DNA of 23,966 nucleotides from positions 1 to 23,966 of IMG/VR virus record IMGVR_UViG_3300010399_000414. The stretch is one strand, 5' to 3'. Each line of letters begins with the position of its first letter. Positions within the stretch are counted from its first letter, which is position 1. The position numbers were made by a program, and so were the translations under genes. The notes beneath the pieces are model-generated. The model was not told where the DNA came from, ran no database searches, and saw only the letters and a program-made list of their open reading frames with translations. Below, piece by piece: positions 1-23,966 of this stretch. The stretch is from a virus.

Positions 1-75
1 CTCCCCCCGCTGACGTGGTGGCATTTCGTGCTGACGTGCTTCGTCGGCCGGTGTGTCACTGGGGCCCGGAGCTAA
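1..75 (+). CDS. possible 3' end of an upstream gene (partial)
   Basis: Frame 1 is open from the window edge to a TAA at 73-75, one base before the ATG of the next gene. The 24 residues include a hydrophobic, tryptophan-rich stretch (LTWWHFVLTCFVG). The close stop-start spacing is what the rest of this block shows, which is the main reason to think it real. It is too short to recognise and could be chance, since stop codons are rare in DNA this GC-rich. Confidence 0.3.
   Translation, partial: LPPLTWWHFVLTCFVGRCVTGARS
9..38 (+). repeat. 9-base direct repeat, 21-base period
   Basis: GCTGACGTG occurs at 9-17 and again at 30-38, two helical turns apart, just before the first gene. A related GTGCTGACGC lies in the gap before the polymerase gene. 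It could be an operator, but the first copy pair also lies in a possible upstream reading frame. Confidence 0.25.
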
Positions 76-76
76 C

Positions 77-622
77 ATGGCCTGCCGGATATGGCTCGAC
101 ACCGAGACCACCGGCCTCGACCCCAGCACCGGCCACCTCCTAGAGGTGGCCGTGCTGGCGACCGAGTCCGACGGCCCGGCGTACACCGAAGTCGCCGCAC
201 AGACATGGGTCATTCGCCCGCCCACGGGGTGGATTGCTGCGCTCGACCAGCACACCGCCGGGATGCACACCGCGTCGGGGCTGGTTGCCGACGTGCTGGA
301 GCGTGGGCTCCCCATCGCCGAAGTGTCCGCCGAGCTGGTCCGGTTCCTGCGTTACTTCGGGAATCCCGCCCCAGGCCGTGAACCCATCGCTGGGTTCTCA
401 CCACACTTCGACCTGGGCTGGCTGGAGGTACACCTCCCGCTGGTCCGCCGATACTTCTCGCATCGTACGTTCGACGCGAGCACGTTGCGTCAGTTCGCCC
501 GCGATTGTGGCCGGGGTGACCTGGTCACGGGTCACGACACGGCCGCGCACCGTGCCCTGGCGGACTGCCGCCAGGCGGCCGATTGTGCGCGGGCGGTGGC
601 GCGATTGCTCGGGACGCGCTAG
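77..622 (+). CDS. DnaQ/oligoribonuclease-like DEDDh 3'-5' exonuclease
   Basis: A 181-residue protein with the three exonuclease motifs of the DEDDh superfamily. Motif I is WLDTETTGLDP (D8 and E10, counted from the ATG at 77). Motif II is the GFSPHFDLGWLE segment. Motif III is H-x4-H-x4-D in GHDTAAHRALADC. Family members remove nucleotides from 3' ends using two metal ions. The size and the motif near the N-terminus fit oligoribonuclease or a stand-alone proofreading subunit. In a phage it may recycle short oligonucleotides from host RNA or DNA, or assist the polymerase encoded next. The ATG at 77 is preferred over the GTG at 53: GGAG at 68-71 sits five bases upstream and motif I then falls at the usual distance from the N-terminus. 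RNA or DNA preference cannot be read from the sequence. Confidence 0.82.
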   Translation: MACRIWLDTETTGLDPSTGHLLEVAVLATESDGPAYTEVAAQTWVIRPPTGWIAALDQHTAGMHTASGLVADVLERGLPIAEVSAELVRFLRYFGNPAPGREPIAGFSPHFDLGWLEVHLPLVRRYFSHRTFDASTLRQFARDCGRGDLVTGHDTAAHRALADCRQAADCARAVARLLGTR

Positions 623-702
623 TCTTTCCAACACCCCGTGTGCTGACGCAAGGGCGCTCCAAGTGTGTGCCGAAGTCGGCGCACGGGGTGACTGGATTGA
701 CC

Positions 703-2661
703 ATGCAATACATCGGCTGTGATTCAGAAACCGAACGATTCGCTCCGGGGTACATGGCCCCGGCCCTCGTGTGCATCCAGTGGCAACTGCTCGGCGAGAC
801 CGAGCGACACATTCTTACCCGTCGCGCCGGGGCCGTTAGCCAGTTACGCGCCTGGCTGAGAGACCCCGGCGTGACGCTGGTCCTCCACAACGCCGCGTAC
901 GACGCCGCCGTGTGGTGCGCCGCGGGGCTGACGGAGGAAGTCTTCCAGGCGTACCGCGCCGGCCGTATCCTGTGCACGTACGCCTACCAGCGCCTGGGTG
1001 AGATAGCCGGCCTGGCCCAGCGTGCGTCGGGCAAGCTCGGCGCGGTGTGTGAGGCCCACGGGTTGCCCTCACCCGACCTGAAGGACTCCGGCCTGGCGCT
1101 GGAGTTCGGCCAGTTCCTGGACGCACTCGAAATCCCCGAGCCGCACCGCTCGTACGCGCTGGACGACTGTATCGTCGCGAAGGTGTTCGAGCGCCAGCTG
1201 CGCCGTTTCGGTAAGTACGTCCCGCTGTCAGCACTACAGCGGCTGTCCTACCGCTCGTTCTGCCTCCAGTTGTCCTCGGTGTGGGGGCTCCCCGTGGACC
1301 AGCGCGCGGCCGACGCCCTCGCGGCCACAGCCCAGGCTGAGCTGGAGCGCCTGACGCCCGCGGCCGTCGAGGCCGGCATTCTGGAGTGGCGAGCGTGCAC
1401 GCGCCAGGGCCAGCGCACGCTCGGATGGGTCAAGAACCAGACCCTCCTCCGCGCGATGGTCACGGCCGCCTACGACGGCCACCCGCCGATGACCGAGCAG
1501 ACCCTTACGGCGAAGCGCGCCCGCGCCAAGAAGGATAAGGAGCGCGCCGCGGCGGGCCTGCCCCCGCGCCCACCGTGGCAGCCCCAGGTGTCCCTGGCGA
1601 GCGAGACCCTGCGCGAGTCGAACGACCCGGACCTGGTGGCGTTCGCGTCGTACGGCGAGTGGTCGAAGGTCGAGTCGGCCGACGTCCCGATGCTCCGGCT
1701 GGGGGGCGGACTCATCCACACCAAGTACGACATCACGGACACCCTCCGCACCAGCGCCGCCAAGCCCGCCATCCAGAACTGGCGCACTGGACTGGACGCC
1801 AAGCCCGGCACGAACGTCCCGCTCATCCGCGAATGCGTCGTGGCCCCGCCGGGGTTCTGCATCGTGTCGGTGGATATGGCCGGCCTGGAGTTGGCGTCGT
1901 TTGCCCAGAACGTATACAACCAACTCGGGCTGCGCCGGATGGTGGACGACCTGAACACGAAGGTGGACCTGCATGCGCGCATCGGGGCGCGACTCATGCC
2001 CGGCGGGGTGGGGTACGACGAGTTCCGGGCGCGGTTCAAGGCCGGTGACCGGGACTGCTACTGGTGGCGCCAGGCCGGCAAGGGGTCGAACTTCGGGTTC
2101 CAGGGCGGGATGTCCAACCCCGAGAAGCACGCCCGGTACTGCAAAATGCAGTACAAGGTCGCCATCACCCCCGAGCAATCGAAGCGGGCGCGGGCGATTT
2201 GGAAAGAGGAGAACCCCGACGGCGCGGCGTGGCTGGAGTACGTGGCCTCGACCGAGAAGCCCGGCAAGACGTTCGACGCAGACCTGCCCGGGTTCGGGAT
2301 GACCCGCAAGGACGTGTGGTTCTGCGCCGCGGCGAACAACCCCTTCCAGGAACTCGGCGCGTTCGTGTGCTCGGAAGGCACCATCGTGCTCAACGAGGCG
2401 ATGTACCTCGCGGGCGGGGCGCTGCGCCGGTGCCGGATGCTGGCCCACCTCCACGACGAATGGCTCATCCAGGTCCCACTGGACGAACTGGCCGCGGCCG
2501 ACCGGACGATTCGTGGGCTGTTGACGGATGCGGCTCGACGAGTCCTGCCCGACGTACTATCGTGTATCCCTGAGGCCAAAGCAATGCCGCGATGGTCTAA
2601 GCGGGCGAAGGAAGTCCGCGCCCCCAATGGGGACCTACTAGTGTGGAGTGACGCAGCATGA
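703..2661 (+). CDS. family A DNA polymerase with 3'-5' exonuclease domain
   Basis: The likely phage replicative polymerase, 652 residues. The N-terminal proofreading domain has DSE (D7, E9), LHNAAYD (D67) and YALDD (Y151, D155). The polymerase domain has motif A VDMAGLELASFAQ (D391, E396), motif B R456QAGK460 followed by NFGFQGG (O helix), and motif C HDE at 584-586. No 5'-3' nuclease domain is present, as in T7-type phage enzymes. Two deviations stand out: the usual Tyr-Gly at the end of the O-helix motif is Gly-Gly (468-469), and the Arg after motif A Glu-Leu is Ala. F464, at the Phe/Tyr sugar-selectivity site, is kept. The ATG at 703 is chosen because the 40 extra residues from 583 overlap the upstream gene and show no exonuclease character. 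The stop overlaps the next start (ATGA). Confidence 0.93.
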   Translation: MQYIGCDSETERFAPGYMAPALVCIQWQLLGETERHILTRRAGAVSQLRAWLRDPGVTLVLHNAAYDAAVWCAAGLTEEVFQAYRAGRILCTYAYQRLGEIAGLAQRASGKLGAVCEAHGLPSPDLKDSGLALEFGQFLDALEIPEPHRSYALDDCIVAKVFERQLRRFGKYVPLSALQRLSYRSFCLQLSSVWGLPVDQRAADALAATAQAELERLTPAAVEAGILEWRACTRQGQRTLGWVKNQTLLRAMVTAAYDGHPPMTEQTLTAKRARAKKDKERAAAGLPPRPPWQPQVSLASETLRESNDPDLVAFASYGEWSKVESADVPMLRLGGGLIHTKYDITDTLRTSAAKPAIQNWRTGLDAKPGTNVPLIRECVVAPPGFCIVSVDMAGLELASFAQNVYNQLGLRRMVDDLNTKVDLHARIGARLMPGGVGYDEFRARFKAGDRDCYWWRQAGKGSNFGFQGGMSNPEKHARYCKMQYKVAITPEQSKRARAIWKEENPDGAAWLEYVASTEKPGKTFDADLPGFGMTRKDVWFCAAANNPFQELGAFVCSEGTIVLNEAMYLAGGALRRCRMLAHLHDEWLIQVPLDELAAADRTIRGLLTDAARRVLPDVLSCIPEAKAMPRWSKRAKEVRAPNGDLLVWSDAA

Positions 2662-3185
2662 CCGATTCGAATCAAGAACTCAAGCGCGACGCGGGCAAGA
2701 CCCGACCGGACCTCATCCCGTGGAACGAGTTCCACCCCATCGCCATCGACCACGGGGTCGAGTCAACCGCAGAGGGTCTCAAAATCTGGTGGTCGGCCAA
2801 GCCGTTCAAGTTGGAGCTGTCCATCCCCCAACGCCAACTCCGCGGCATCGCGGCGGTGCTCGCGTTCGGTGCCGCGAAGTATGAACCCCGCGGGTGGGAG
2901 CGCGGCATCCCCTACTCACGCATCTACGCCGCGGCCCAGCGCCACGCCGAGTACGTCGCGGCCGGGGAGTTCATCGACGCCGAGTCCGGCCTGGCACACG
3001 AGTCCCACTTCTGGTGCAACGTGCTGTTCCTGGTCGTGTTCGCCGAGCGCGGGCGGGACGACCTGGACGACCGCCCCGCCCCCGTCGCGGCGGTGGTCGA
3101 GCGGATGGATGCTCTGAAGCGATTGGTCGACGGCCTGAACGGCTACGCCCCGGCCGCCCCCGAACCCACAACGAAAGACAACTGA
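2658..3185 (+). CDS. dATP/dGTP diphosphohydrolase N-terminal-type protein (DUF5664 family)
   Basis: 175 residues. The centre matches the phage family known as DUF5664 or dATP/dGTP diphosphohydrolase N-terminal domain: QLRGIAAVLAFGAAKY, then GWERGIPYSRI, RHAEYVAAGEFID, and ESGLAHESHFWCNVLFL. These are helices with conserved acidic and histidine residues resembling the MazG-like all-alpha pyrophosphatases. Family members are linked to cleaving dGTP or dATP to the monophosphate, including in the 2-aminoadenine pathway (MazZ), but relatives also occur in ordinary phages. The ATG overlaps the polymerase stop (ATGA) with GGAG at 2645-2648, so translation is probably coupled. The next gene is an HD phosphohydrolase, so the pair may reshape the dNTP pool for the polymerase. 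The family is clear; the substrate is inference. Confidence 0.72.
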   Translation: MTDSNQELKRDAGKTRPDLIPWNEFHPIAIDHGVESTAEGLKIWWSAKPFKLELSIPQRQLRGIAAVLAFGAAKYEPRGWERGIPYSRIYAAAQRHAEYVAAGEFIDAESGLAHESHFWCNVLFLVVFAERGRDDLDDRPAPVAAVVERMDALKRLVDGLNGYAPAAPEPTTKDN

Positions 3186-3188
3186 CCC

Positions 3189-3755
3189 GTGACGAACACC
3201 AACCGCTACGCCTACCGCACCTATTCCGGCTTGATGCTGGACCTGTCGAACCCCCGTCCCGAGGACATCTGTCTGGAGGACATCGCCCATCATCTCGCGC
3301 GGGTGTGCCGCTTCGGCGGCTCGGTGCACGAGTACTACTCGGTGGCGTCCCACTCGGTCATGGTGGCCAACATCGTGTCGGCCGGGTCCGGCACGACGGC
3401 CCGCCGTAACCGGTCCGCGCTGCTGCACGACGCGACCGAGGCGTACCTGGGGGACATGGTGTCCGGGCTGAAGCGCCTCAATCCGGACTACCGTATCCTG
3501 GAGGACTTGTGGGCCATCGCGGTCGAACAGCGTTTCGACGTGTCGTTCCGCCGGTGTCCCATCATCAAAGACGCCGACTTGCGGGCGCGGCTGTCCGAGT
3601 GCCGGGACCTGTTCTCGGGCAGCTACCCCCGAGAGTTGCTGCTCGGGGGCGAGGGCAACCGTGAACCGTGGGGTGACCCGTGCCGCCCACTGGACCCCGA
3701 GGCCAGCGAATGGGAGTTCCTGGCGACCGCCGACCGGCTGGGTGTGGGGTCGTGA
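3189..3755 (+). CDS. HD-domain (d)NTP phosphohydrolase, YfbR/DatZ-like
   Basis: 188 residues from a GTG start three bases after the previous stop. The HD metal site is visible: H55 in VASHSVMVA, H80-D81 in LLHDATEAYLGD and D130 in IIKDADLRARLSE. The RFGG...YYSVASHS entry segment is typical of phage HD hydrolases of the YfbR type. Cellular YfbR removes phosphate from dNMPs. The phage relative DatZ strips triphosphate from dATP in aminoadenine phages. With the DUF5664 gene beside it, a role in altering the deoxynucleotide pool is likely. Which nucleotide is attacked cannot be decided here. The stop overlaps the next GTG (GTGA at 3752-3755). Confidence 0.8.
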   Translation: MTNTNRYAYRTYSGLMLDLSNPRPEDICLEDIAHHLARVCRFGGSVHEYYSVASHSVMVANIVSAGSGTTARRNRSALLHDATEAYLGDMVSGLKRLNPDYRILEDLWAIAVEQRFDVSFRRCPIIKDADLRARLSECRDLFSGSYPRELLLGGEGNREPWGDPCRPLDPEASEWEFLATADRLGVGS

Positions 3756-4973: not shown

Positions 4974-4982
4974 GGTTACCCA

Positions 4983-5300
4983 ATGAGCAACATCAAGAAA
5001 ATCGGAACCGTGGGTTACTGGGACATCGGCCGCGACGACGAAGGGGACCTGTGCCTCCTGTTGGACGTGCGCGCTGAATATCCGGAGGTGTTCTACCTAT
5101 CCGTCGCCGGGCAGTTCACGCTGGAGGAGCGGCTCGCCGAAATCCGCGCCGCGTGCTCGGACCCCCGCGACCGCGTCATTGCAGCCGCGCGTCGGCTCGC
5201 CGCGACGGGTGTGTGTGAGGACGACTACGAGGACTTCGACGCCCTCGTGTCGGCGGTCCAGGCCCTGGACGAACAGGAGGACGCCGATGACGAATCGTGA
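4983..5300 (+). CDS. small acidic protein of unknown function
   Basis: 105 residues, not recognised. The first half looks like a small beta domain (TVGYWDIGRDDEGDLCLLLDV). The middle is helical with many charges. The C-terminus is strongly acidic (EDDYEDFD and DEQEDADDES). There is no signal peptide or membrane segment. GAGG at 4972-4975, seven bases before the ATG, supports the start. Position in the early block and acidity would allow a host-binding inhibitor or DNA mimic, but that is speculation. Confidence 0.7.
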   Translation: MSNIKKIGTVGYWDIGRDDEGDLCLLLDVRAEYPEVFYLSVAGQFTLEERLAEIRAACSDPRDRVIAAARRLAATGVCEDDYEDFDALVSAVQALDEQEDADDES

Positions 5301-5445: not shown

Positions 5446-5448
5446 TGT

Positions 5449-5904
5449 ATGGCTCGCGACCCTGTAAAGGTGAAGGCCGCCAAGGCCCGATATGCCGCCA
5501 GTGAGAAGGGGCAGGCCGCGGCACTGCGATACAGGACGAGCGAGAAGGGGCGCGCGGCCCAGGCCCGCGCCGACGCCAAGCCCAATATCGTGGCTTCCCG
5601 AAGGCGTCGGCGTGGGGTCACGAATGCATCGGGGGAGCGCCGCACAGGCCCGTGTGACCTGTGCGGCCGTCACATTGACGGCCTGCACCAGGACCACGAC
5701 CACGTGACCGGGATGGCGCGTGGCTGGCTGTGTAATGGATGCAACCTAGGACTGGGCCAGTTGGGCGACACAGTCGAAAGTCTCCAGCGCGCCGTCGACT
5801 ATCTCACCGTCGCCCGGACCGCGCACGAAGCTTCTTGTTCCGCATCACCTCAGCCACACGCTTTGCATACACTTGCTCCGGAGTCTCCTCCGGTTGCCAA
5901 GTAG
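5449..5904 (+). CDS. recombination endonuclease VII-like HNH nuclease
   Basis: 151 residues. The nuclease core is CDLC (C69, C72), LHQDHDH (D82, H83, H85) and LCNGC (C95, C98), followed by N99LGLGQLGD. This is the zinc-binding beta-beta-alpha arrangement of the endonuclease VII family, which cuts branched DNA. Two near-copies of RYxxSEKGxAA (from residues 14 and 27) precede it, a basic repeat common before phage HNH domains. The final ~34 residues lie antisense to the 3' end of the large terminase gene (101-base overlap) and look low-complexity, so they may be a passive extension. It probably works in junction resolution or genome clearing before packaging. Confidence 0.85.
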   Translation: MARDPVKVKAAKARYAASEKGQAAALRYRTSEKGRAAQARADAKPNIVASRRRRRGVTNASGERRTGPCDLCGRHIDGLHQDHDHVTGMARGWLCNGCNLGLGQLGDTVESLQRAVDYLTVARTAHEASCSASPQPHALHTLAPESPPVAK

Positions 5905-7168
5905 TCATGTGGGAGAAGCCGCCCCCTTGTAGTGAATACTGCAAGGCATCCGTCGCTTCATCGACGTAGCCCTCGCGGTGGTCGTCTTTCTCCAGGTTCC
6001 ACGGGAGTCCGCGCCATTCCTCCAGCAGCTGCCCGCACCGCCCTATGGACCCCCGTAGCGTGCGCGCATCGAGCATGGTCCGGACCTGTTCAATTCTAAG
6101 ACGCCGCGCCCGCTTGTCCGCGGGCTGACACGGCAACCCGTACGACCGAGCCAGGGTTTCGCACAGTGTCCGCCCACCACCCCCCGCGGCGTCCACGAAC
6201 ATTTCCGTGACGTGGTGCTGGGAGCGCATCCGCTCTGCGATGGCGGCCGCACGGGGCAGTGTGAGTTCCGCCTCGCGGTATACCTCCAGCACGTGGGCTC
6301 CGGGGTTGGGATACCGCGACCGCACCACAGCAAACCCCATACCATCTGACCACCCCAAATCGATACCCATCGACGTGTAGTTCGTGGACGGGGGCGGGGG
6401 TTCGTAGAACTCCCCGTCGAGGTCCAGCGTCGGCCGGTAGATGAGAATCCCCTCCTCCTGGACCCGGTGGCCGAGGTACTCCCGCCGGAACGTGGCGTTA
6501 TCGGCCCGCCCCGCGAACCGTTTCGCCAGGGCCTCGGCGATGAACTCCGACCCGGGCTTCTCCAGGTGGGGGTTCTCCGCGGCTGTCCAGCAGAAGTGTG
6601 CCCCCGCCTCGGCGCACGCCGCCATCTCGTCCTCGTAGAACCCCACGCCGGTGTCGGCGGGGGTCCCCAGTAAACACAGGTCCCCGTCCGTGTCCGCGAG
6701 GGTGGGTTCGATGACGTCCACCACCAGGTACTCCAGGAGCGGGTCGGCGATTTGGCCGCACTCGTCCACGCCGACGCGGTGGATTTTCGGGACGCCGCGG
6801 ACGAGGTTAGCCGACCGCCGGTCCTTACAGCCCATGTAGTACAATGTGAACCCGTTGGGCCAGGTCCACGTGGCGTCTGTGCCATTGTAGACCGCTCCCC
6901 ACGAGAACCGGTCGTTGAACTCTCGCAGGGCGTCCCAGCCGATTTTGATGGCCGACTCCTGGGACAGCGCGAGGAATATCGACGACTGGTTGGGGCGCCG
7001 CTTCCACTGCTCGACCAGCCACAACGTCACGGAGAACGACTTCCCCGCCCGGCGGCCGGAACAATTCGTCCGTCGTTTCGCACAAGAGGAGACGAATTGT
7101 AACTCCGGCGGGGTGAGGGCGCGGCGCTCCTCGGGGATTTTGAGGAGGCGCGTCAACGGCTGTAGCAC
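5804..7168 (-). CDS. terL: terminase large subunit (ATPase and nuclease)
   Basis: 454 residues from a GTG at 7168. ATPase domain: Walker A SGRRAGKS (K43), Walker B RVGVDE and coupling motif LLGTP. Nuclease domain: SMGIDLGWSDG, FVDAAGGGG and YVDEATDALQYS, each supplying an acidic metal ligand. It powers DNA translocation into the prohead and cuts the concatemer. The GTG is chosen because the upstream extension runs through the divergent portal gene, and TATACT lies six bases before it. The gene is alone on its strand, divergent from the portal and convergent with the endonuclease VII-like gene, which is unusual because terL normally precedes portal on the same strand. Confidence 0.93.
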   Translation of the reverse strand: MLQPLTRLLKIPEERRALTPPELQFVSSCAKRRTNCSGRRAGKSFSVTLWLVEQWKRRPNQSSIFLALSQESAIKIGWDALREFNDRFSWGAVYNGTDATWTWPNGFTLYYMGCKDRRSANLVRGVPKIHRVGVDECGQIADPLLEYLVVDVIEPTLADTDGDLCLLGTPADTGVGFYEDEMAACAEAGAHFCWTAAENPHLEKPGSEFIAEALAKRFAGRADNATFRREYLGHRVQEEGILIYRPTLDLDGEFYEPPPPSTNYTSMGIDLGWSDGMGFAVVRSRYPNPGAHVLEVYREAELTLPRAAAIAERMRSQHHVTEMFVDAAGGGGRTLCETLARSYGLPCQPADKRARRLRIEQVRTMLDARTLRGSIGRCGQLLEEWRGLPWNLEKDDHREGYVDEATDALQYSLQGGGFSHMTTWQPEETPEQVYAKRVAEVMRNKKLRARSGRR

Positions 7169-7174
7169 GGGTTC

Positions 7175-7180: not shown

Positions 7181-7197
7181 GCGCGTTCGGCCGGCCG

Positions 7198-7220
7198 GTG
7201 CTAGACTAGGGGACACTATG
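7198..7220 (+). promoter_or_regulatory. shared start element copy 1 (portal operon)
   Basis: GTGCTAGACTAGG (7198-7210) is followed by GACAC and the portal ATG. The same 13 bases, GACAC and ATG occur at the head of the other late operon (copy 2). The element contains an extended -10 (TGC-TAGACT) ending ten bases before ATG, and CTAG-A-CTAG forms an odd palindrome. AGGGG could also act as a ribosome site. Either a phage-specific late promoter with a very short leader or an operator would fit. Confidence 0.6.
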
Positions 7221-9203
7221 ACTGGAGACCTGCCCTGGTGGGAGATGGACGCGCGGGCCGCCGCGCTGGCCATCGTGGAACTGGAGGACCAATACTCCCG
7301 GGATTTCATGTGGCGCCGCATCCGCGCCCGGCGCCTGGCCGGCGGATACCATGGCCGGGACCTGGCCACGCCGTTCGCTCGGGACGCCCGGTTCTCGTGG
7401 CGGGACGAGTCGGCCGACCCGGACCGCGAGACCATCACGCTCATCCGGAACAAGTTCTACGAATACGTCGAGACCCACGTGGGCAAAATCGGCGCGGTCG
7501 ACGCGCCCCAGCCCGCCCTCATGGTCACCGATGGCGACTGGGAGCTGAAGCGCAAAGTGGAGCTGTCCTCCCGGCTGCTCCTGGCCGAGTACGGTATGCG
7601 CCAGGGCCAGTTCGCGAACCTGCACGCACTGTGCCACCAGGGTCTCCGCATCGCCGACGCGGCCACTGGGTCAGTCGCCGCGAAGGTGTACCCCTGGCCG
7701 GAGGAGGACCGCGTGGTCGTCGAGCTGCACGACACGCTGGACATGTTCCTCGACGACACAGAGCTGTCCTACGGGGTCCCGCGCACGTTCGGTGAGGTCA
7801 CGTGGTGGCCACCGTATCGGCTGGTCCGCTCGTACCCGTCCCACCGCGAGGCCATCGTCAACGCCGTCGAGGCGCGCACCGACCGGGGCGGGCTGGTGTT
7901 CTCGGGCCGCACGGCACGCGCCGAGCTGGTCCCGATATGGGAAGCCTGGGCCGTCAAAATCGGTGAGGAGGCCGGGCGCCACATCGTCACGCTCCGCGAC
8001 GGGACCGTGCTACTGGACGAGGAATGGGACTCCGACGAGCCGCCCTTCGCGTTCCTGCACACGAACCCTAACCTCACGGGATTCTGGGCGAATCCGATGA
8101 TGGACATCGTGTACGAGGAAATCCTGAAGGCCAACGAAATCATCCAGCGTTGCGACGAAGCCCACACCCACACGGCCAAGCAGGTACACTACGTGGTGGA
8201 GTCCGACATCGTCGACATCAACGAAGTACTCGACGTCGACACCATCACGGTGGTCCGGCTGAAAAACGCGGCCGCCCGCGTGGCCGTCGAGAACCCCGCG
8301 CCGTTCAACCGCATCGACCTGGAGCTGCTCCACGAGCACGAGTCCGGCATCGCCCGCGCGCTCGGCATCGATGAGATGCACTCGGCCGCCAAGTCCGAGC
8401 CGGGCCTCCCGTCCGGCGTGGCCCAGCGCGAAGCCGGCGCCCGATTCGACAACCGGCACGCCACCACGCACCGTGCGTACGTTCAGTGGGTCGCCGTCGA
8501 CATCGGCCGGCACGTGCTCCGGGCCCAGCGGAAGCTGTACGAGCAGAACACCGCGTTCAAGCGCCGGTGGACGGGGGATTTCTTCTCCCGGGACATCGAA
8601 GCGAAGGACGTTGTGGACCTGGACTTGAACGCCCTGCACGTGCAGGTCAAGCCGACCGGGGAGAAAAAGAACACCCCGGAGGAGCGCGTCCAGTACGCCG
8701 AGGAGCTGCTGGAAAAGGGCGCCATCCCGTTCGAGGCGTACCTCATGGCCATCCAGACCTACGACACCCCCGGCGAAACGAAAGTCATCAAGACCCAGCG
8801 GCGCTGGGTCGCGTGGCAGATGGACCGCTGGTTGATGGCGAAGGACGCCGAGCTGAACGAGCCGGACTTCTACCAGGGGCCCCGGCCGTGGATGCGCAAA
8901 ATCGATGCGATGGTCCAGGTCGTCGACGCCCTGATGGAAGCGGAGCTGTCCGGCGTCCCCGTCGAGCGGCTCCAGTACTTCCTCGATTTCATTGCGGAGT
9001 TGTCCGAGGCCATGTCCGCGGAAGTCAACCCGCCCCAGGCCGCCGCGCCGCCACTCGGTGCTCCGGCGCCGATGCAGGGCTCGGCCGGCATGAACGTCGG
9101 CCTCGGTGGCTCCGTCGGTGGGCCGCCGGGCGCCGCGCCGATGGCCGCGCCACCTGGCGCCCCCGTCGCCGGGCCGCCCCCAGCTGGGCCGTCCGGCCTG
9201 TAA
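7218..9203 (+). CDS. portal protein (head-tail connector)
   Basis: 661 residues. Order, length and features fit a phage portal: an alpha/beta N-terminal half, then the long helical segment NPMMDIVYEEILKANEII...CDEAHTHTA, a HESGIARALGIDEM segment with SGVAQREAGARF, and a Pro/Ala/Gly-rich tail from about residue 605. Portals form the dodecameric ring at one capsid vertex, docking the terminase and later the tail. The ATG at 7218 has AGGGG at 7208-7212. A scaffold-like gene follows 56 bases downstream, which supports the call. Portals diverge strongly, so the assignment rests on size, context and the central helical region. Confidence 0.8.
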   Translation: MTGDLPWWEMDARAAALAIVELEDQYSRDFMWRRIRARRLAGGYHGRDLATPFARDARFSWRDESADPDRETITLIRNKFYEYVETHVGKIGAVDAPQPALMVTDGDWELKRKVELSSRLLLAEYGMRQGQFANLHALCHQGLRIADAATGSVAAKVYPWPEEDRVVVELHDTLDMFLDDTELSYGVPRTFGEVTWWPPYRLVRSYPSHREAIVNAVEARTDRGGLVFSGRTARAELVPIWEAWAVKIGEEAGRHIVTLRDGTVLLDEEWDSDEPPFAFLHTNPNLTGFWANPMMDIVYEEILKANEIIQRCDEAHTHTAKQVHYVVESDIVDINEVLDVDTITVVRLKNAAARVAVENPAPFNRIDLELLHEHESGIARALGIDEMHSAAKSEPGLPSGVAQREAGARFDNRHATTHRAYVQWVAVDIGRHVLRAQRKLYEQNTAFKRRWTGDFFSRDIEAKDVVDLDLNALHVQVKPTGEKKNTPEERVQYAEELLEKGAIPFEAYLMAIQTYDTPGETKVIKTQRRWVAWQMDRWLMAKDAELNEPDFYQGPRPWMRKIDAMVQVVDALMEAELSGVPVERLQYFLDFIAELSEAMSAEVNPPQAAAPPLGAPAPMQGSAGMNVGLGGSVGGPPGAAPMAAPPGAPVAGPPPAGPSGL

Positions 9204-9211
9204 CCCCACCC

Positions 9212-9238: not shown

Positions 9239-9259
9239 CCAACCTATAACAGGACCCCC

Positions 9260-10249: not shown

Positions 10250-10257
10250 GATTGCTA

Positions 10258-11515: not shown

Positions 11516-12002
11516 CTCCGCCCTCGCCCCGCCGGGCCATGAACTGACCCCCGACTTGGCCGCCCAGCTGATAGCCGCGGCCAAGTCGGGGTTGTTCAAG
11601 GAGGCGTGCGCCCGGTGCGTGGGCGTGTCCGAGGATACCCTGGACATGTGGTTGCGGATGGGGCTATCCCCCGGCGCCACGAACCCCTATCGCGACTTCG
11701 CACGGGTGTTCGTAGCCCAAGAGGAGGCCCAACAGATACCCCACATCAACGCCATCAAGTCGGCCGCCGCGGTCGACTGGCGTGCTAGTATCGCGTGGCT
11801 CCAGCTACGCCATCCGGATGCGTGGGGCCCCCGCGCGACGCGGAACAACTCGGCGGCCAGCCTCCGCCCGACGGAGGATGACTCCGTGGCCGAGGCAGCG
11901 ATGGTCCGTCAGCTCGTCCAGTCGAACCCGGCGGTGCTGGAGCGCATTCTGGTGGAGGCGGGTTGGACCCCGCCTCCGACCCCGTCAACCGACCCGAGGT
12001 AG
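11502..12002 (+). CDS. terS: terminase small subunit-like DNA-binding protein
   Basis: 166 residues. A helix-turn-helix lies at about residues 31-52 (LFKEACARCVGVSEDTLDMWL). The next segment, ending in NAIKSAAAVDWRASIAWLQLRHPDAWG, is typical of small terminase proteins that recognise packaging sites. The C-terminal part is acidic and helical and may contact TerL. The ATG lies in the last codons of the RNA ligase gene (14-base overlap). Its 3' end overlaps the minus-strand 1421-residue gene by 18 bases. It sits 4.3 kb from terL and on the other strand, which is uncommon. It could alternatively be a phage regulator. Confidence 0.68.
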   Translation: MSSADSALAPPGHELTPDLAAQLIAAAKSGLFKEACARCVGVSEDTLDMWLRMGLSPGATNPYRDFARVFVAQEEAQQIPHINAIKSAAAVDWRASIAWLQLRHPDAWGPRATRNNSAASLRPTEDDSVAEAAMVRQLVQSNPAVLERILVEAGWTPPPTPSTDPR

Positions 12003-15000
12003 CCCCGCGGGCGCGGCCGACGCCGCGGCCACGTGTGACACGTTGCCGCTCGACGTCGGGCCCCCGCCGGGCTTCGTCGGTACGGCCTGCTCGTAGGCGT
12101 AGGCCGTCATAGCCGCCACGGTGGACGACATGGCGGGGTCCGCGAACGACCCGTCCCCGCCGAACAGCCGCCCGTACGACACGCGCGACTGGATGCTGGT
12201 GGGGGGCCCTTCGTCCCGGACCGTGAGGTAGGCCGCCACGCGGATTTCGGCCAGGAGGTCCGGGTACAACGCCTCGGTGGTCTCCATCAGTTCCACCCCC
12301 ACGTGCCCCTGGGCCGCGGCGTTGGCCCACGCCTCCTTCGGTCGGAGCGCGGCGTCCTCGTACCGTGCGTACTTCGCGATGGCCTCGGCCGACACGGGGA
12401 TGTCCCGCATCGAAATCGAGTTCTTCTTGGTGGCGTTGGGGAGGCGTTCTTTCAGGAACGCAGCCGCGGCGAACACCCCGCCGTGGGCCTTGGGCTGGAC
12501 CTCGGGCGGGACGTCCCGGAGTCCCTCCGCCACCCGGTCGACCAGCTCCTGGGGGTTCTCGCCCCAGGACTGAAACTCGGCTTGACGTTTAGCCAGGTCC
12601 GACCGGCTGTAGACCGCACGCGCAGCGAGCCGCGTGGCCAGCCGCCCCACCGTCGGGGAGAACAGCCGCCGGGCCACGTCCGCCACGAGGCGCCCGCGGG
12701 CCTGCTTGAACAGGCTGGCCGCACCGACGAATCCCATCCCCACACCACCCGCGCCGGCGGTACCACCGTCAGGTTTCTCCGCAGAATCGAGCGCCGCCGC
12801 GCCGATGGCGGGGATGGCTAGGTAACCCACGTCCTTCAGCCCGCCCGCGACGGTGGCGGGGATTTCCTGCATCGTGAACGTGAAGTTCCCCGTGTCGGGG
12901 TTGACGTACCGGCCGGTGACCTTGACCCGGGTCCCGGGCGTCAGGACCATTTCCATTTCGGCCGGGTTGACCCCGATGAGCGCCCCCGCGGAGTCCACCT
13001 TCGTGAACCGTAGTTCGTGCGGCCCGAAGTCCGTATCCGGATAGTACGAGGTTGAGATGTGGTTCGGGACTACGTACTCGTCTTTCGTGAGCAGTTCCGC
13101 CAGCCCCGAGTCCTCTAGGTCCACGTACCGGTACAAGTCCCCGTGCTTCGTGGGGTTCATGACGGTGAGTTTGTCCATCGCCGACTCGAACGACGCGGCG
13201 TTGCTGGGGTCGGTGGGCTCCTTGAACTCCGACACCAGGCCCGTACGCTGCTCGTACTTGATGGAGTGCGACCCGCCGACCCATTCGTTGATGGCGGCCT
13301 GCTCGGGCTCGTCCAGCTTCCGGGCGGCTTCGCGAGTGACTTCGAACAGCTTCTTGACGCCGGGCAGTTGCGGGGACTCGGCCATTCGGGCACTGTCCGT
13401 CAGGTGCCCAAAATAGTGCGTAGTGGTCTGGGGCGGAGGCGGGGGCAGCGCCTCGATAGCCTGCTTGACGATGGCCTTCGCCTCGGCCCGGCCTTCCTCG
13501 GTCAGCGCGAACTTCGCGCCGAGACGCATCGACGCCCCCAGCTTCCCCCGCTTCGTCAGGGCCATCAGCCCGAGCCCTAGCCCGGCCGACGCCCCGGCCA
13601 CGCCGTCTTCGCCGTCGGCCGCCGCGGCCGACGCACCAGCACCCAGCGTGATGAGCCCGGCGGCCTTCAGGGTGTCGGCGTTGCGGCGCAGGAAGTCCCC
13701 CAAAAGGGAACCATCGGGAGCCTTTTGTCCCGTGGCGTTCAGTCCGTCGACCACGTGGGCGAACTCACCCTCCGTGAGGGCCTGCATCCGCTTCGCCTCG
13801 GCGGACCGTGCGGCCTCGCCCGGCTGGACATGGCCTTCGAAGTACGCCATCCCCTCGGTTCGGTACGGGGCTGGGTGGGTGGGCGCCATCGCCTCGCCCG
13901 CGAGCGGGACCTCCGAGCCTTCACGCATCGACGGGAGCGCGGACTCGCCGGCCAGCTCCGATTCGAGCTTCGACGGCGGGGCCATCGGCTCCCACCCGCC
14001 GGCCGCGCCCCGTGCGGGGGTGTTGCCCGGCTCGGGCAACGGCCGGGCAGAGTCCGGTGACCACACCCCGTACTGCTCGGGGGCCCGGTGCGGGTCCCAC
14101 GCCGCGGCGCCCTGGTGGTACGCGCCGCCGGCCTCGGGCCGCTCGGTCGCTGTGCGGGCCAGCCCGCTCGCGTCGGTGGGACGCTCATCGGGGAATCCCC
14201 CACCGCCGGGCTCACGCGGGGGCGGCTCGGCGCCGACCGAAATCGGGCGCTGTTGGGGCGTGATGGCTTCCATTCCCGCGGGCCGGCGGGGGGTCTCCTG
14301 ACGTCCGACCTGGCCTGGGCCGGGGAACGGCCCCGCCGGGGCCTCCGGGGGCGCGGCCACACCAACGGCGCGCTGGGGCTGGCCCGCGATGGGGCCGGCC
14401 TCCCCGGGCGGCCGTAGGGACTCCGCCTTCGGGAACGGCGCGTCCATGATGTCGTCCGTGAGCCGGTCGGTGAGGCCCTCCGTCACGTCCTTGCCCGCAG
14501 CGGCGGGAAGGGCGTCCTTGGCGAGGAGTTCCGCCATCGAATGCAGCTCCCCCTTGAACAGCCCCAGCTTGGCCGCGGCCTGACCGAACCAGTGCCCCAT
14601 TCGTGCCCCGCGGAAGGCCCCAGCACCGACCGCGCCCCCCATGGGCCCGGCAGCCGCCAGCCCCAACCCCGCCGCCACGGCGGTGCCAGCCGCGTCGGCT
14701 ACGGTACTACGGGCGGCTGTACGCTCGGCCGCCGCGTTGATGAACGTGGAGTTCGCCATGTTCTTTCGGAGGCGGCGTACCGATTCGAGCGCCTCCCGGG
14801 CCGCCTTCGGGGCGTCGCGCTCGCCGGCTCGGGCGATAGCTTCCGCACCGTCGAGGTACTGGGTGAACAATTCCCGCGCCCGGTGTGTATCCGGGCTGGT
14901 CCCACCCAGTTGGGTGAGGAATTTACGCATTTTGCTGGGTTCACCTCGGTACGTCGTGAACCCCTGGGCGTCCTTGCCCGTGGCGAAGTGCAGGTCGGCC

Positions 15001-16250
15001 AGCACGGTCTTGCGGGCCGGGAACCATTTCTCGTGAAACGGGACGTTGTACTCGCGCTGCATCCGGGCCGCGGCCTCACCCCACGCATCCTCGCGCAGTA
15101 GCGCCGTGCGGGTGGCTTCCTCGGCCGCATCGATGGACGCTAGACCTTCGCGGGACAGCCACGCGGACCCCGGGTTCGTGTCGTACGCCTGGTGCAGGTC
15201 CTGGCGGTATTCCTGGAGCGCCTGGCGGTTTTCGTCTAGGATGCGCCACAGCTTCTTTCCTTTAGGCGCGGCCTCCAGCGCAGCGATGCGCTCGTCGAGC
15301 TGCTTGGCCAGGCGCTTGGCCGGGCCGCCGCCCGCGGACTCCAGCTCGTCGGTCAACGCGGTCCGGAGCCGCTGTAGTCCCTCTACCGCCCCGACGTTGA
15401 TTTCATGCTGTACGGCCGGATGGTCCACGACCGACGCCATGATGCGGGCGCGCTTCTTATCCTGGCGGCCCACCTCCGCCGTGGCGGTTTCCAGCGTGTC
15501 CAGGTCCTTCGCGCCGAGGTCCGCGAGCTGGTCGTGGTACACGTCGGCGTGCTGGGCGGTGCGGTAATCCCCCACCCACCCGCCCTTCGACAGCGTCCGC
15601 TCGGCGTCGGCCGCGACGGCGTCGCGTGCGGCTCGCGTGATGAGATTCCGGGCGCCGCCCAGGGTTTTCGAAATGGTCCACGCCCCGCCTCGGCCCATGA
15701 CTTCCGCGGCAACACCGGCCAGGGCCGCGTCGGTGAACGAGAAGTTCTCTCCGGCCTCGTGTGACTGCTCGGCCTCGATTTGGGCCCCGCCGACGGCGGC
15801 GTTGATACCGTAATCCGCCGCGACCGCGCCGGCTCGCGTAGCCAGTGACGCACCAGCCGCACCAGCGCGGATAGCCGACCCGGCCACACCACCGAGTACC
15901 ATCGCGGGGGCCTGACCTAGTACACTGGCACCCATGGCCGCGTACGGGTGTTCGGCCGTGTACCGGGCCGCGGTCGCCCCCGACCGCGCGTCACGCTCGG
16001 CCAGACCGAACGTCGCGCCGGAGACCGCCTTCGCCGTGAACTCAGTAACCGGGTCGTACCCGGTTTTCGTGTCCGTCGCCAGGCCGGTCGGCGCCCCGGC
16101 GGGGCGGGCCTCGACTTCAGACGCCTGGGCCTGGCGGACCTGTTCGGGGGTTAGGGATTGGTACCCCGCGTTCGCCGCGCCTTGGGCGTCGGCTTCGTCG
16201 AACACGACGACTTCGCCGGTGGTCGGGTCTTTTAGGTATAGGTCAGCCAT
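11985..16250 (-). CDS. giant internal virion/ejection protein with ADP-ribosyltransferase domain
   Basis: 1421 residues, last gene of the minus-strand operon, starting at an ATG overlapping the previous stop (TAATG). The N-terminus (LKDPTTGEVVVFDEADAQGAANAGY) resembles the opening of other large phage internal proteins. Gly/Ala-rich hydrophobic stretches at about 104-155 and 517-545 could insert in membranes. About 610-810 is Pro/Gly-rich and disordered. About 940-1135 matches the ADP-ribosyltransferase fold: HGDLYRYV with R1041, STS at 1066-1068 and E1098-x-E1100 in AEMEMVLTPGTRVKV. The last ~260 residues are helical and unrecognised. Placement after a transglycosylase-bearing protein suggests ejection into the host with the DNA, where the domain could modify a host protein. 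The role as an internal protein is inference; the R/STS/ExE pattern is visible. Confidence 0.7.
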   Translation of the reverse strand: MADLYLKDPTTGEVVVFDEADAQGAANAGYQSLTPEQVRQAQASEVEARPAGAPTGLATDTKTGYDPVTEFTAKAVSGATFGLAERDARSGATAARYTAEHPYAAMGASVLGQAPAMVLGGVAGSAIRAGAAGASLATRAGAVAADYGINAAVGGAQIEAEQSHEAGENFSFTDAALAGVAAEVMGRGGAWTISKTLGGARNLITRAARDAVAADAERTLSKGGWVGDYRTAQHADVYHDQLADLGAKDLDTLETATAEVGRQDKKRARIMASVVDHPAVQHEINVGAVEGLQRLRTALTDELESAGGGPAKRLAKQLDERIAALEAAPKGKKLWRILDENRQALQEYRQDLHQAYDTNPGSAWLSREGLASIDAAEEATRTALLREDAWGEAAARMQREYNVPFHEKWFPARKTVLADLHFATGKDAQGFTTYRGEPSKMRKFLTQLGGTSPDTHRARELFTQYLDGAEAIARAGERDAPKAAREALESVRRLRKNMANSTFINAAAERTAARSTVADAAGTAVAAGLGLAAAGPMGGAVGAGAFRGARMGHWFGQAAAKLGLFKGELHSMAELLAKDALPAAAGKDVTEGLTDRLTDDIMDAPFPKAESLRPPGEAGPIAGQPQRAVGVAAPPEAPAGPFPGPGQVGRQETPRRPAGMEAITPQQRPISVGAEPPPREPGGGGFPDERPTDASGLARTATERPEAGGAYHQGAAAWDPHRAPEQYGVWSPDSARPLPEPGNTPARGAAGGWEPMAPPSKLESELAGESALPSMREGSEVPLAGEAMAPTHPAPYRTEGMAYFEGHVQPGEAARSAEAKRMQALTEGEFAHVVDGLNATGQKAPDGSLLGDFLRRNADTLKAAGLITLGAGASAAAADGEDGVAGASAGLGLGLMALTKRGKLGASMRLGAKFALTEEGRAEAKAIVKQAIEALPPPPPQTTTHYFGHLTDSARMAESPQLPGVKKLFEVTREAARKLDEPEQAAINEWVGGSHSIKYEQRTGLVSEFKEPTDPSNAASFESAMDKLTVMNPTKHGDLYRYVDLEDSGLAELLTKDEYVVPNHISTSYYPDTDFGPHELRFTKVDSAGALIGVNPAEMEMVLTPGTRVKVTGRYVNPDTGNFTFTMQEIPATVAGGLKDVGYLAIPAIGAAALDSAEKPDGGTAGAGGVGMGFVGAASLFKQARGRLVADVARRLFSPTVGRLATRLAARAVYSRSDLAKRQAEFQSWGENPQELVDRVAEGLRDVPPEVQPKAHGGVFAAAAFLKERLPNATKKNSISMRDIPVSAEAIAKYARYEDAALRPKEAWANAAAQGHVGVELMETTEALYPDLLAEIRVAAYLTVRDEGPPTSIQSRVSYGRLFGGDGSFADPAMSSTVAAMTAYAYEQAVPTKPGGGPTSSGNVSHVAAASAAPAGLPRVG

Positions 16251-20073: not shown

Positions 20074-20082
20074 AGCGTCAGG

Positions 20083-23064
20083 TCACTTTCGGCTGGCAGA
20101 CGCGAGCCGCGAGGGCCCGTTCCGCTTGGTGTAGGATACCACGAGGCCGGTCAGCCGGCAACCTTCCGTGGTGGTTACGGTGGGGGTCATCGTGATGCGG
20201 AACCGGAACCGGTCCCCGCGTTGGCGGGCCGGGAACCACTCCCGCTGGAACGTGTCGCCGGTCGTCAGCCCGGACACGGTGTGGGTGCCGAGGGACGTCC
20301 AGGACTGCCCGTCGTCGTAGGAGATTTCCCCCAGGATGGCCGCGGCGGCCTGGAACTCACCCAGGACCTCCACGCACGCGAGCCGGCCCTGGCCGGCCAT
20401 TTCGAACGGGGCTACTTGTCCCGTAGTGACACGCAAGGCCACCGCCGTGGCCCCGGACGCGCCGTCGCCGTACGCGGCGGACTCCTGGGCCCACACCACG
20501 CCGTCGGACGCCACGGCGTACAGCCGCCCTCGGTGCCCCAGGAGCGCGATGGGTGTGAACGGGAGCCCGTCGCCGAACCACTGCTGGGTGTCCAGCTTGC
20601 GTGCAATCAGCGTGGCGTTGGATGCGGCCCACGCGGCGAGGTTGTCGGCGGACTCGTACCCGGACCCCACGACGGTGATGCTGGTCGAGAACCGGTCCTG
20701 GGCCGAGTGGTCGAGCACGGGGGTGCCCGACCCGCGGGGGATTTGGTACATCGCGTCCGGACCCCCCAGGAACCACAGCCCCTCAGAGGTCTCCAGGATG
20801 GAGGCGGTGGAGTAGAATCCCACGTCGGCGGGGAGCCGGTGCGGGGGGTCGAACTCGCCGTTACCCGCCAGGTTCGGCCCGGCGCCGCCCGTGACGTATA
20901 GCCGGCTGGACGTCCCGATGAACGCCAGCTCGTCCAGAGCCGCTACACCCGTGATACGTCCGGCCTCGACATCGTCGAAGTATGCCTGGGCCGGGTCACC
21001 GACCAACCCGGGCTCGGCGAACCAAATCTGGGTCTCGGGGAACGATACCTGCGACCACTGCCACGCCGTGTCGGCGGACCCGAGCACCAGCCGACGTTTC
21101 GTAGCAGCGATGAACGACGACGCCCGCGGTGGGCACATTGGTAGCACACCGGACGTGGCCCCGAACTCGCCCTGGGTAACGAGTTGGGGGTTGTGGATAA
21201 GTGTAGCGTCGGGCGTTACATCGACGATAGTCACCGAATCCGTGAACGTGTCCACCGCTCCGGTGTTGGTCAGGTAGAACAGCTCCCCCGGCTGACCGGG
21301 CACCAGGCCGTTCTCCGTGCGATACAACTCGATACGCGGATTGGTGATGAGATTACCACTACGGCGCAGTGTTTTCGGCACATTGACCTGGACGGTCATC
21401 GTATCCTCCGCGCCGACCAGGGTCTGGTTGGCGGCTAGGCTCAGGTCCGAGCGGTGCGTTCGATGCTGCTCGTCTTGCCACACCAGCTGTGCGATATACG
21501 AATACGTCCCGGTCAGGGTCAGTGACCCCGACCCGTTGGACGGCGACAGACTGGCCAGTGCCGGCGCGGCCAGGCTGGTCTCCGAATACCCGTCGGTCCA
21601 CTGCATCAGCACGCCGCCCGTGATATACAGCGCGCCGGCCAGCTCAGCCGACGGCCGCCGTTCGAGACTGGCAACTTTCAGTGACTGTACCTTAGCAGTC
21701 CGGGGCGTAGTGTCGGACGGGGCCTCCGGAGTGCGGTCAATCGGGGTCAGTATCAGGGCGTCACCGGTCGGTGCTAGCGCCGGCCAGAACGGCGCGTGCG
21801 AAGTGGAGGAGTCCCGCGCTCCGATGCCGAACTCGGCATATACCCATGGCTGTTCGATGGACTGGTACGCGGCGACTCGGCCGCGGTTGCCCGAGGGGAG
21901 TGGCCCACCCAGCGTGAACCCCGCCGCGGCGAATCCGCCATTGGACAGATACCCGCCGTACAACTGGACCGACAACTGCTCGAAACTAGTGTTGGCATGC
22001 GCCAACGTCAGCCGGTTGACATACGCACGGTTCAAGTCCGACGCGCCCGATGACCGCTCGGATGCCACGAATATAGATGACCCGGTCTCGCCAATCGCAA
22101 ACCGCCCACGGATGATGGTCTGGGCGTTCAGCTCCGTCGGGCCGGCCGACGTGGTGTACGGCGACGTCCCGGAGAACGACAGCAGCGATACGCGCGAGTC
22201 GGATGCCTTCTGGAACGCGACGTGCACGCGCGTGTCGTCCAGGGTGTAAACAGTCGACGCCTTCGTGTCGGTGGCTGCAACGGTCTTGGCCGCGCCTACA
22301 ATAACACCGGCGGTCGTGAACTGCCGGTACTCCGTCGCGCCGGTGCCCGCGGTGTCCGTCGTGACCAGGTGTATCTTGCCGGGCGTGGTGTCGGTCGCGA
22401 CCGCGACGTCGAACCAGTCTTGGGTCGCTGACAGCAGCGTGGCCGTCAGCGAGAACGCCGGGGCGGTGGCCGTCGGGGTCAGTGTATACAGGTCGATTTG
22501 GGTGCCGGAGTTCTCGACCAGACCGAACGTGGACCCCAGGGACACGACCTTGCGCACGCGGGAGCCATTGCTCAGCTCCACGACGGTCAGTGTCTGGTCC
22601 GAGTCACGTTCGAACACGCGCACGACGGACCGGGTGGCCGTCTGTACCAGCACGCATCCGTACACGCCGTCGGCGGTCAGGGCTGCGGACGCACGTTCGA
22701 CGTTCGCGTTCAGGTCGGGAATGTTGCCCACGTTGCGCAACTGGGTCACCGGAGACAACGCTGCCGCGGTGTTCAGTACCCACGGGCGCGTGGCGTTCGA
22801 TTCGACTAGCACGGCCGACCGCAACCCCGAGTCCACCATCACCAGGGACGAACCCGACGAGTGTAGGTCAATCGCGAACAGCCCCGTGCCGTCCAACGCA
22901 GTCATGGTTACCGGCCGCCAGCCCCGCCGTAGCCGTAGCGACCCGCCCTGGGGGATGCGGCCGTTGCGGATGTCCGCGAACACCCCGTTGGGGAGGAGCT
23001 TTTCGTCGATGGCATCGGACATGCCCCCGACGAACGGGATAGGGAGAGACTGGAGGCGCGACAC
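20083..23064 (-). CDS. large beta-rich tail protein, possibly tail nozzle/tubular protein B-like
   Basis: 993 residues, GTG start one base after the preceding stop. The start (PFVGGMSDAIDEKLLPNGVFADIRNGRIPQGGSLRLRRGW) follows the layout of phage proteins related to T7 gp12-type tail nozzle or propeller proteins: a glycine-rich opener, a D-x-K-LLPNG segment, and N-G-R-x-x-x-G-x-L-x-x-R-x-G. The rest is Ser/Thr-rich beta repeats of propeller type (GGPDAMYQIPRGSG; GHRGRLYAVASDGVVWAQE) ending in a jelly-roll-like strand region. It would sit at the distal tail beneath the portal and contact the ejection proteins encoded downstream. The family placement rests on the N-terminal pattern, size and context only. 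Confidence 0.62.
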   Translation of the reverse strand: MSRLQSLPIPFVGGMSDAIDEKLLPNGVFADIRNGRIPQGGSLRLRRGWRPVTMTALDGTGLFAIDLHSSGSSLVMVDSGLRSAVLVESNATRPWVLNTAAALSPVTQLRNVGNIPDLNANVERASAALTADGVYGCVLVQTATRSVVRVFERDSDQTLTVVELSNGSRVRKVVSLGSTFGLVENSGTQIDLYTLTPTATAPAFSLTATLLSATQDWFDVAVATDTTPGKIHLVTTDTAGTGATEYRQFTTAGVIVGAAKTVAATDTKASTVYTLDDTRVHVAFQKASDSRVSLLSFSGTSPYTTSAGPTELNAQTIIRGRFAIGETGSSIFVASERSSGASDLNRAYVNRLTLAHANTSFEQLSVQLYGGYLSNGGFAAAGFTLGGPLPSGNRGRVAAYQSIEQPWVYAEFGIGARDSSTSHAPFWPALAPTGDALILTPIDRTPEAPSDTTPRTAKVQSLKVASLERRPSAELAGALYITGGVLMQWTDGYSETSLAAPALASLSPSNGSGSLTLTGTYSYIAQLVWQDEQHRTHRSDLSLAANQTLVGAEDTMTVQVNVPKTLRRSGNLITNPRIELYRTENGLVPGQPGELFYLTNTGAVDTFTDSVTIVDVTPDATLIHNPQLVTQGEFGATSGVLPMCPPRASSFIAATKRRLVLGSADTAWQWSQVSFPETQIWFAEPGLVGDPAQAYFDDVEAGRITGVAALDELAFIGTSSRLYVTGGAGPNLAGNGEFDPPHRLPADVGFYSTASILETSEGLWFLGGPDAMYQIPRGSGTPVLDHSAQDRFSTSITVVGSGYESADNLAAWAASNATLIARKLDTQQWFGDGLPFTPIALLGHRGRLYAVASDGVVWAQESAAYGDGASGATAVALRVTTGQVAPFEMAGQGRLACVEVLGEFQAAAAILGEISYDDGQSWTSLGTHTVSGLTTGDTFQREWFPARQRGDRFRFRITMTPTVTTTEGCRLTGLVVSYTKRNGPSRLASASRK

Positions 23065-23065
23065 G

Positions 23066-23287
23066 TTAGGGCGCCCCCGTCACCAGGATTTTGACCGCCA
23101 CGGCCAGCACGGACCCCACGATGGTGGTCCACCCACCGGCCTTGACCCACTTGGGGGTCTGGTTGGACTGGATTTGGAGCAGGATGCGCTCGACGTTACT
23201 AAGGCGGTCGTTTAGGGACATCAGCGTTACTTTGGGGATGAGGGCGTAGCGTCCGGGGTCACGGGCGCTGCGGTCAGGTGGGGTCAT
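23066..23287 (-). CDS. small coiled-coil membrane protein, holin-like
   Basis: 73 residues. A short amphipathic coiled coil (LNDRLSNVERILLQIQSNQ, residues 25-43) is followed by one membrane span (about 51-69, GWTTIVGSVLAVAVKILV). This resembles XhlA-type lysis proteins or class III-like holins, which help holes form in the inner membrane at the end of infection. The ATG at 23287 is chosen over an internal ATG at 23221 because GGAGG lies five bases upstream. It ends one base before the next gene's GTG. No endolysin gene lies beside it, so a structural membrane role is also possible. Confidence 0.6.
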   Translation of the reverse strand: MTPPDRSARDPGRYALIPKVTLMSLNDRLSNVERILLQIQSNQTPKWVKAGGWTTIVGSVLAVAVKILVTGAP

Positions 23288-23807
23288 GGGAGCCTCCAGA
23301 GATGCCGAAGGCCCGGAATGCGGGCGCTTCGACGCAATCGACGAATTGAACATTGTGGATTTCCAGGCCCCACGCCTTCGCGGCGGTGACGACCTTGCGG
23401 CGGACCTTCTTTAGCACCGTGCCGTCGAACACCTCGGCGGCCGTGGCGGACATCACCGCGGACCCGAGCTGTCCCGCGGCGACGTCTTGGATGTTGTTGT
23501 TGGCGTCGTAGACCTTGAACGCGAACGTGCGCGGGTCCACGACGGCGTGGGACACCATCAGGCGCACGACCAGGGTCACGCCGTCGGACGTCCGGAGCGA
23601 CTGGGCGGGAAGCACGTCGGCCCACACCCGCACGTCGGCCTTCACGGCGTCCTCCACGAACGGCCACATCAGGTTGAACCCAGGCTTTAGGTCACGGACG
23701 GGGTGCCCGAACCGGATTATGACCCCGGAGTGTTCCAACCCGCACACACACCAGAACTTGAACCAGTGGATGACCGAAATCAGGACGTCTATGAGCTTGT
23801 CAAACAT
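23274..23807 (-). CDS. SPFH/band-7 (prohibitin-stomatin-HflK/C-like) membrane protein
   Basis: 177 residues. An N-terminal hydrophobic anchor at about 5-22 (LIDVLISVIHWFKFWCVC) precedes a clear SPFH domain: GVIIRFGHPVRDLKPGFNLMWPF, then DVRVWADVLPAQSLRTSDGVTLVVRLMVSHAVVD, and a helical half with AKAWGLEIHNVQFVD. These proteins form large membrane cages or microdomains. Bacterial HflK/C cage the FtsH protease. The long C-terminal coiled coil of host members is missing; the protein ends just after the domain. It is the first gene of the late minus-strand operon and overlaps the holin-like gene by 14 bases, so it may organise the membrane for lysis or modulate a host protease. That role is inference. 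Confidence 0.82.
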   Translation of the reverse strand: MFDKLIDVLISVIHWFKFWCVCGLEHSGVIIRFGHPVRDLKPGFNLMWPFVEDAVKADVRVWADVLPAQSLRTSDGVTLVVRLMVSHAVVDPRTFAFKVYDANNNIQDVAAGQLGSAVMSATAAEVFDGTVLKKVRRKVVTAAKAWGLEIHNVQFVDCVEAPAFRAFGISGGSHDPT

Positions 23808-23828
23808 TGTGTCAGCCTAGTCTAGCAC
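23805..23828 (-). promoter_or_regulatory. shared start element copy 2 (SPFH-tail operon)
   Basis: On the minus strand GTGCTAGACTAGG (23828 down to 23816) is followed by CT, GACAC, A and the SPFH ATG. This repeats copy 1 at the portal start, with 13 identical core bases plus GACAC and ATG, and one extra base in between. It contains an extended -10 (TGC-TAGACT) ending 11 bases before ATG. It lies in a 37-base gap after the stop of the upstream glycine-rich gene. Confidence 0.6.
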
Positions 23829-23844
23829 GGTTGGGCCGGTCGGC

Positions 23845-23966
23845 TCACCCGAACTCCTCGACCACGCATTCGCCTCGGGCGCCGTCGCCGCCGGCTCCGG
23901 CTGTAGCATTAGCGGCAACAGTAGCATGTGACGCGGCCCCGCCCCCCCCCCCCCCCCCCCCCCGGA
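23845..23966 (-). CDS. C-terminus of glycine-rich protein, probably tail fibre/adhesin (partial)
   Basis: On the minus strand an open frame enters from the window edge, runs through the poly-C tract as a run of glycines, continues with AASHATVAANATAGAGGDGA and ends RGECVVEEFG, then TGA (23847-23845). Gly-rich segments ending in a short beta strand with acidic or aromatic residues are common at the C-terminus of phage tail fibres and adhesins. It directly precedes the SPFH operon on the same strand. Only about 39 codons are present and the poly-glycine part may be distorted by assembly, so the identity is tentative. Confidence 0.45.
   Translation of the reverse strand, partial: RGGGGGGGGAASHATVAANATAGAGGDGARGECVVEEFG
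23942..23963. repeat. 22-base C homopolymer at window end
   Basis: An uninterrupted run of 22 C precedes the final GGA. Read on the minus strand it encodes poly-glycine in frame with a glycine-rich C-terminus. It may be a real low-complexity coding tract where assembly stopped, or a sequencing/assembly artefact. Its exact length should not be trusted. Confidence 0.85.

Follow-up and report, generated by a model that had tools for sequence, protein, structure and literature searches.

The tetranucleotide GATC is missing, completely or nearly so, from a clade of uncultured tailed phages of roughly genus-to-family depth, in which continuous selection has purged it over the whole of the clade's history. 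We infer that the selection reflects lasting exposure to a host enzyme cutting unmethylated GATC, probably a Type II restriction enzyme. An exact string search of the window, that is, the whole stretch of DNA analyzed, an IMG/VR virus contig of exactly 23,966 bases (GC 67.9%), returns no GATC on either strand, since the motif is its own complement. This confirms the first-pass annotation, which had noted the absence from the letters alone. The annotation had also supposed that random composition would predict several tens of sites, and base composition indeed predicts 71. In the comparison with Markov and codon-shuffled nulls that it had called for, the zero count stands against 77.6 under a second-order Markov model built on trinucleotide counts, and against 91.2 ± 6.5 (minimum of 75 in 400 shuffles) under synonymous-codon shuffling that holds every protein and overall codon usage constant. 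None of the 256 4-mers is more depleted than GATC (z −8.8), and the other four-base palindromes that had been listed as present (GGCC, CTAG, TCGA, and GTAC) occur near expectation. Strong depletion of the site against composition, Markov, and codon nulls, as is looked for in Type II site avoidance, is hence observed for GATC in the window. Avoidance of the CcrM type is ruled out, with 86 GANTC observed for 94 expected.

The window covers part of the genome, about 43 kb long, of an uncultured tailed phage. Its gene set comprises a separate 3′-5′ exonuclease, a family A DNA polymerase, a dATP/dGTP pyrophosphohydrolase, an HD-type dNMP phosphatase, a metallophosphoesterase, an endonuclease VII, both terminase subunits, a portal protein, a transglycosylase-bearing protein, and a Band 7 protein. 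The main features are as follows.

583–2661, plus strand: family A DNA polymerase (phrog_17, E 8e-33; PF00476; PDB profile match to DNA polymerase I), homology reliable from about 700
2658–3185, plus strand: dATP/dGTP pyrophosphohydrolase (phrog_801; PF18909 in relatives)
3189–3755, plus strand: HD-type dNMP phosphatase (weak similarity to dATP triphosphohydrolase)
5804–7168, minus strand: terminase large subunit (phrog_2; relatives 66–83% identical; conserved start near 7168)
7218–9203, plus strand: portal protein (weak PF23899; alignments with relatives)
11985–16250, minus strand: large protein of 1421 aa, probably virion-associated (orthologues in all complete relatives), 4.3 kb without GATC
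20083–23064, minus strand: large conserved protein of 993 aa, GATC absent over 3 kb
23274–23807, minus strand: Band 7/SPFH-domain protein (PF01145, E 3e-19), among structural genes

The pyrophosphohydrolase and HD phosphatase genes adjoin the polymerase, an arrangement that recalls phages with 2-aminoadenine (Z) genomes; a genome of this kind is rejected by the absence of a PurZ-type gene from seven relatives and fragments. Orthologues of the Band 7/SPFH protein in other genomes of the clade are 54–74% identical. No tRNA genes were found, and scans of genes from complete relatives, covering part of their ORFs, list no integrase or repressor domain; the clade is probably virulent.

Relatives were retrieved through polymerase, terminase, portal, and capsid searches. 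The complete or near-complete ones span 42–45 kb, and GC content in the clade is 63–69%. In one of them, G001, a large gene at 39473–43153 is still open where the contig ends and shares its frame with an open start at 1–480, as would be expected of a circularly permuted complete genome. The comparison of related phages, also proposed in the first-pass annotation, reveals that GATC is almost absent from all of them. Observed over expected counts are 0/78 in the window, 1/123 in G001, 0/123 in G003, 0/45 in G006, 0/84 in G008, 1/86 in G009, 5/162 in G010, and 2/52 in G012, with 0/14, 0/26, and 0/15 in the fragments L031, L035, and L036. Summed over these eleven lineages (the window and ten further IMG/VR lineages, leaving out G002, G007, and G004 as apparent near-duplicates of G001 or G003), 9 GATC are observed against about 806 expected. 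Identity among the GATC-poor lineages descends to 43–50% in conserved proteins, and the average identity of aligned proteins in G010 to 43–45%; the portal search likewise reached distant relatives (50–76% identity) devoid of GATC. Beyond the clade, the motif is ordinary in the outgroup G005 (259/274), whose polymerase is 28% identical, and nearly ordinary in L043 (51/72), whose terminase is 27% identical. A library or assembly artefact is ruled out, since several independent assemblies are involved and the outgroups, drawn from the same collection, have normal counts. No protein of the clade is more conserved than one encoded in G001 (L011:6603–7946), which is 58–85% identical to its orthologues and is, by position, probably the major capsid protein; PHROGs, Pfam, and cultured phages offer no match to it. 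In G010 (IMGVR_UViG_3300036938_000011), one protein gives a hit to the Acb2/Tad1 hairpin domain family (PF24729, E 1e-10), to which anti-CBASS and anti-Thoeris sponges belong.

Neither a host nor a cultured relative emerged from the searches. There is no close match to the window among 50,697 phage records and no DNA match in phages; among cultured phages the capsid and portal are unmatched, and polymerase and terminase matches reach only 22–34%. Two profiles, polymerase and capsid, detected no relative or prophage in GTDB genome contigs. No relative was found among plasmids, where the sole match, of 28 bases, falls within a coding gene and appears to be a chance hit.

Codon choice reflects the avoidance of GATC. 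In the window, Lys preceding an Ile encoded by ATC is written AAA in 11 cases and never AAG, against 216 AAG and 36 AAA elsewhere; Glu in the same position is GAA in 11 cases and never GAG, against 334 GAG and 126 GAA elsewhere. These counts bear out the codon avoidance that had been read by eye, with AAA-ATC and GAA-ATC replacing the favoured AAG and GAG. Asp codons with C as the next base are likewise GAC in all 131 cases and never GAT. Between clade lineages, 45–65% of four-fold sites differ, which suggests that synonymous sites are about saturated at this composition. Conserved Asp codons followed by C in both genomes show no GAC/GAT difference in 548 comparisons, against 576 in 2101 where the next base is not C, and the third bases of Lys, Glu, and Gln differ in 0 of 80 comparisons before Ile-ATC, against 2026 of 5670 elsewhere. 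Both zeros follow from GATC absence itself, so that the informative part is the contrast with free change elsewhere, and the genome pairs behind these counts are not independent, making any P value only indicative. Third positions in the clade thus vary freely except where a change would create GATC. The first-pass annotation had attributed the absence to past pressure, a reading that does not hold, since no fewer than eleven lineages with about saturated synonymous sites lack GATC and the purging must hence have been continuous.

The bases that replace G also bear on whether the sites were lost through mutation. A mutational process eroding them without selection, such as deamination of 5-methylcytosine in GATC, would leave AATC and GATT products, which in many contexts do not alter the protein, as with the AAA-ATC and GAA-ATC pairs. 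Of 854 four-fold codons that precede Ile-ATC, 2 (0.2%) end in G, against about 39% elsewhere, but the remaining bases (A 0.09, C 0.78, T 0.13) keep the shares seen before other codons starting with A (0.11, 0.75, and 0.14). This lack of an A excess indicates that GATC was lost by selection and not by deamination, and makes mutational erosion scarcely credible. The third-base differences and the replacement bases are therefore those of a depletion caused by selection, not by mutation bias, as site avoidance entails.

Other missing palindromes provide a context for the identity of the selective agent. In a scan of eight genomes (the window, G001, G003, G006, G008, G009, G010, and G012), GATC is depleted in all eight, CTCGAG in seven, ACGCGT in six, and GAGCTC in two. 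The XhoI word CTCGAG is normal in G010 and the MluI word ACGCGT in G001, the two genomes without GAGCTC are the window and G008, and losses confined to a single lineage, such as that of AGGCCT in the window, are also seen. This patchwork of 6-mers is what would be expected if the Type II restriction enzymes acting on the clade changed over time. The constancy of GATC loss while 6-mer losses shift implies an agent common to nearly all hosts over the time of the clade, for which the candidates are a GATC restriction enzyme of very wide occurrence and a core function of the Dam/MutH kind.

Under the model that we favour, a clade of probably virulent phages has been subject to continuous purifying selection against GATC since before its diversification, the selecting agent being most likely a host Type II restriction enzyme of DpnII/MboI/Sau3AI-type specificity, common among hosts. 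The enzyme would cut unmethylated GATC in incoming phage DNA, so that newly arisen sites would be removed by selection and replaced by the synonymous base favoured in other contexts. Site elimination in dsDNA phages has been found to involve almost only orthodox Type II sites, mostly in non-temperate phages (PMC6286503). The first-pass annotation had proposed a host nuclease cutting GATC, methylated or not, and nuclease pressure has good support as a type of cause and is still the best explanation for the selection against GATC, itself strongly supported, although the data do not single out a particular enzyme. The persistence of one restriction-modification specificity in all hosts over such depth would, however, be unusual, and could point to Dam/MutH instead. 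In such a case, hosts would methylate GATC, and MutH would nick or cut unmethylated GATC in replicating phage DNA, or the loss of GATC would allow escape from mismatch repair. A comparable loss is seen in T7 (6/140.7, computed here as a yardstick), which infects E. coli, a host with Dam and MutH, and the strength of the loss hence does not separate GATC restriction from Dam/MutH. Furthermore, phiX174 lacks GATC and adding the motif lowers its mutation rate, indicating that GATC can matter through mismatch repair, even if some sites are without effect (PMC5014478). A core host function would also explain constant GATC loss beside patchy 6-mer loss. On the other hand, those patchy losses mark restriction as a real force in the clade, and MutH was found only in E. 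coli among 14 control genomes. Dam/MutH occurs mainly in gammaproteobacterial orders with a GC content below the 63–69% of these phages, a poor fit, even though phage GC tracks host GC only loosely. On balance, Dam/MutH appears unlikely, but is the principal alternative.

The genes of the phages themselves inform two further possibilities. Pfam and NCBIfam scans covering most non-structural genes of complete relatives identified no DNA methylase or GATC restriction enzyme, the absence of DpnII from the clade being drawn from the Pfam scans and a DpnII family search having covered one outgroup and one plasmid. This absence of a phage GATC methylase, together with the findings of Rusinov et al. 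on Type II systems (PMC6286503), makes the cutting of unmethylated GATC more likely than that of methylated GATC. A methylation-dependent nuclease (DpnI-like, Type IIM/IV), present in some hosts and cutting phage DNA that had been GATC-methylated in a previous host, would accord with the under-representation of GATC in all 46 phages whose hosts encode a methyl-dependent enzyme (Rusinov et al., PMC6286503). That work holds ordinary Type II systems mainly responsible for the effect, and without a phage methylase the scenario needs some hosts to methylate and others to cut, which renders it improbable. A GATC-cutting nuclease of the phage's own, degrading host DNA while the phage is immune for want of the site, would explain why the loss follows the phage clade, and several conserved genes without known function might accommodate it; in one form of this proposal, a conserved gene of unassigned role would make or direct the GATC-specific cut, the genome being immune by clade-wide purging. 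Among non-structural genes, however, the only nucleases that Pfam scans recognise in relatives with complete or near-complete genomes are endonuclease VII, a Cas4-like PD-(D/E)XK nuclease, and exonucleases, and no MutH-family domain is present in seven clade genomes and fragments, so that both the general proposal and its specific form seem very doubtful. A RuvC-like IDPG motif was noticed by eye in one conserved gene of the clade.

Phage site avoidance is already known, and what is new here is its depth, completeness, and constancy over an uncultured clade. Near-complete avoidance of one 4-base word can persist over a clade of this depth even as 6-base words turn over. The set of missing words hence provides a usable fingerprint for finding the host group, in which enzymes cutting GATC should be common and those cutting CTCGAG and ACGCGT should occur more variably. 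The dsDNA phages surveyed by Rusinov et al. (2018; PMC6286503) resemble the clade: in both, phages of non-temperate appearance have almost completely lost a palindromic Type II site. Unlike those cases, the clade is uncultured, the loss extends to genus-to-family depth, and the absence of GATC is constant where 6-mer avoidance varies from lineage to lineage. The coliphages T7 (6/141) and phiX174 (none; PMC5014478) avoid the same motif with similar strength, but in hosts that have Dam and MutH, whereas the clade has a GC content of 63–69%. Lastly, the lytic staphylococcal podovirus phiAGO1.3 has only two GATC sites, ascribed to the avoidance of restriction such as Sau3A (PMC6346686); with a genome of 17.6 kb and a known host it differs from the clade, and the likeness drawn here is one of GATC scarcity.
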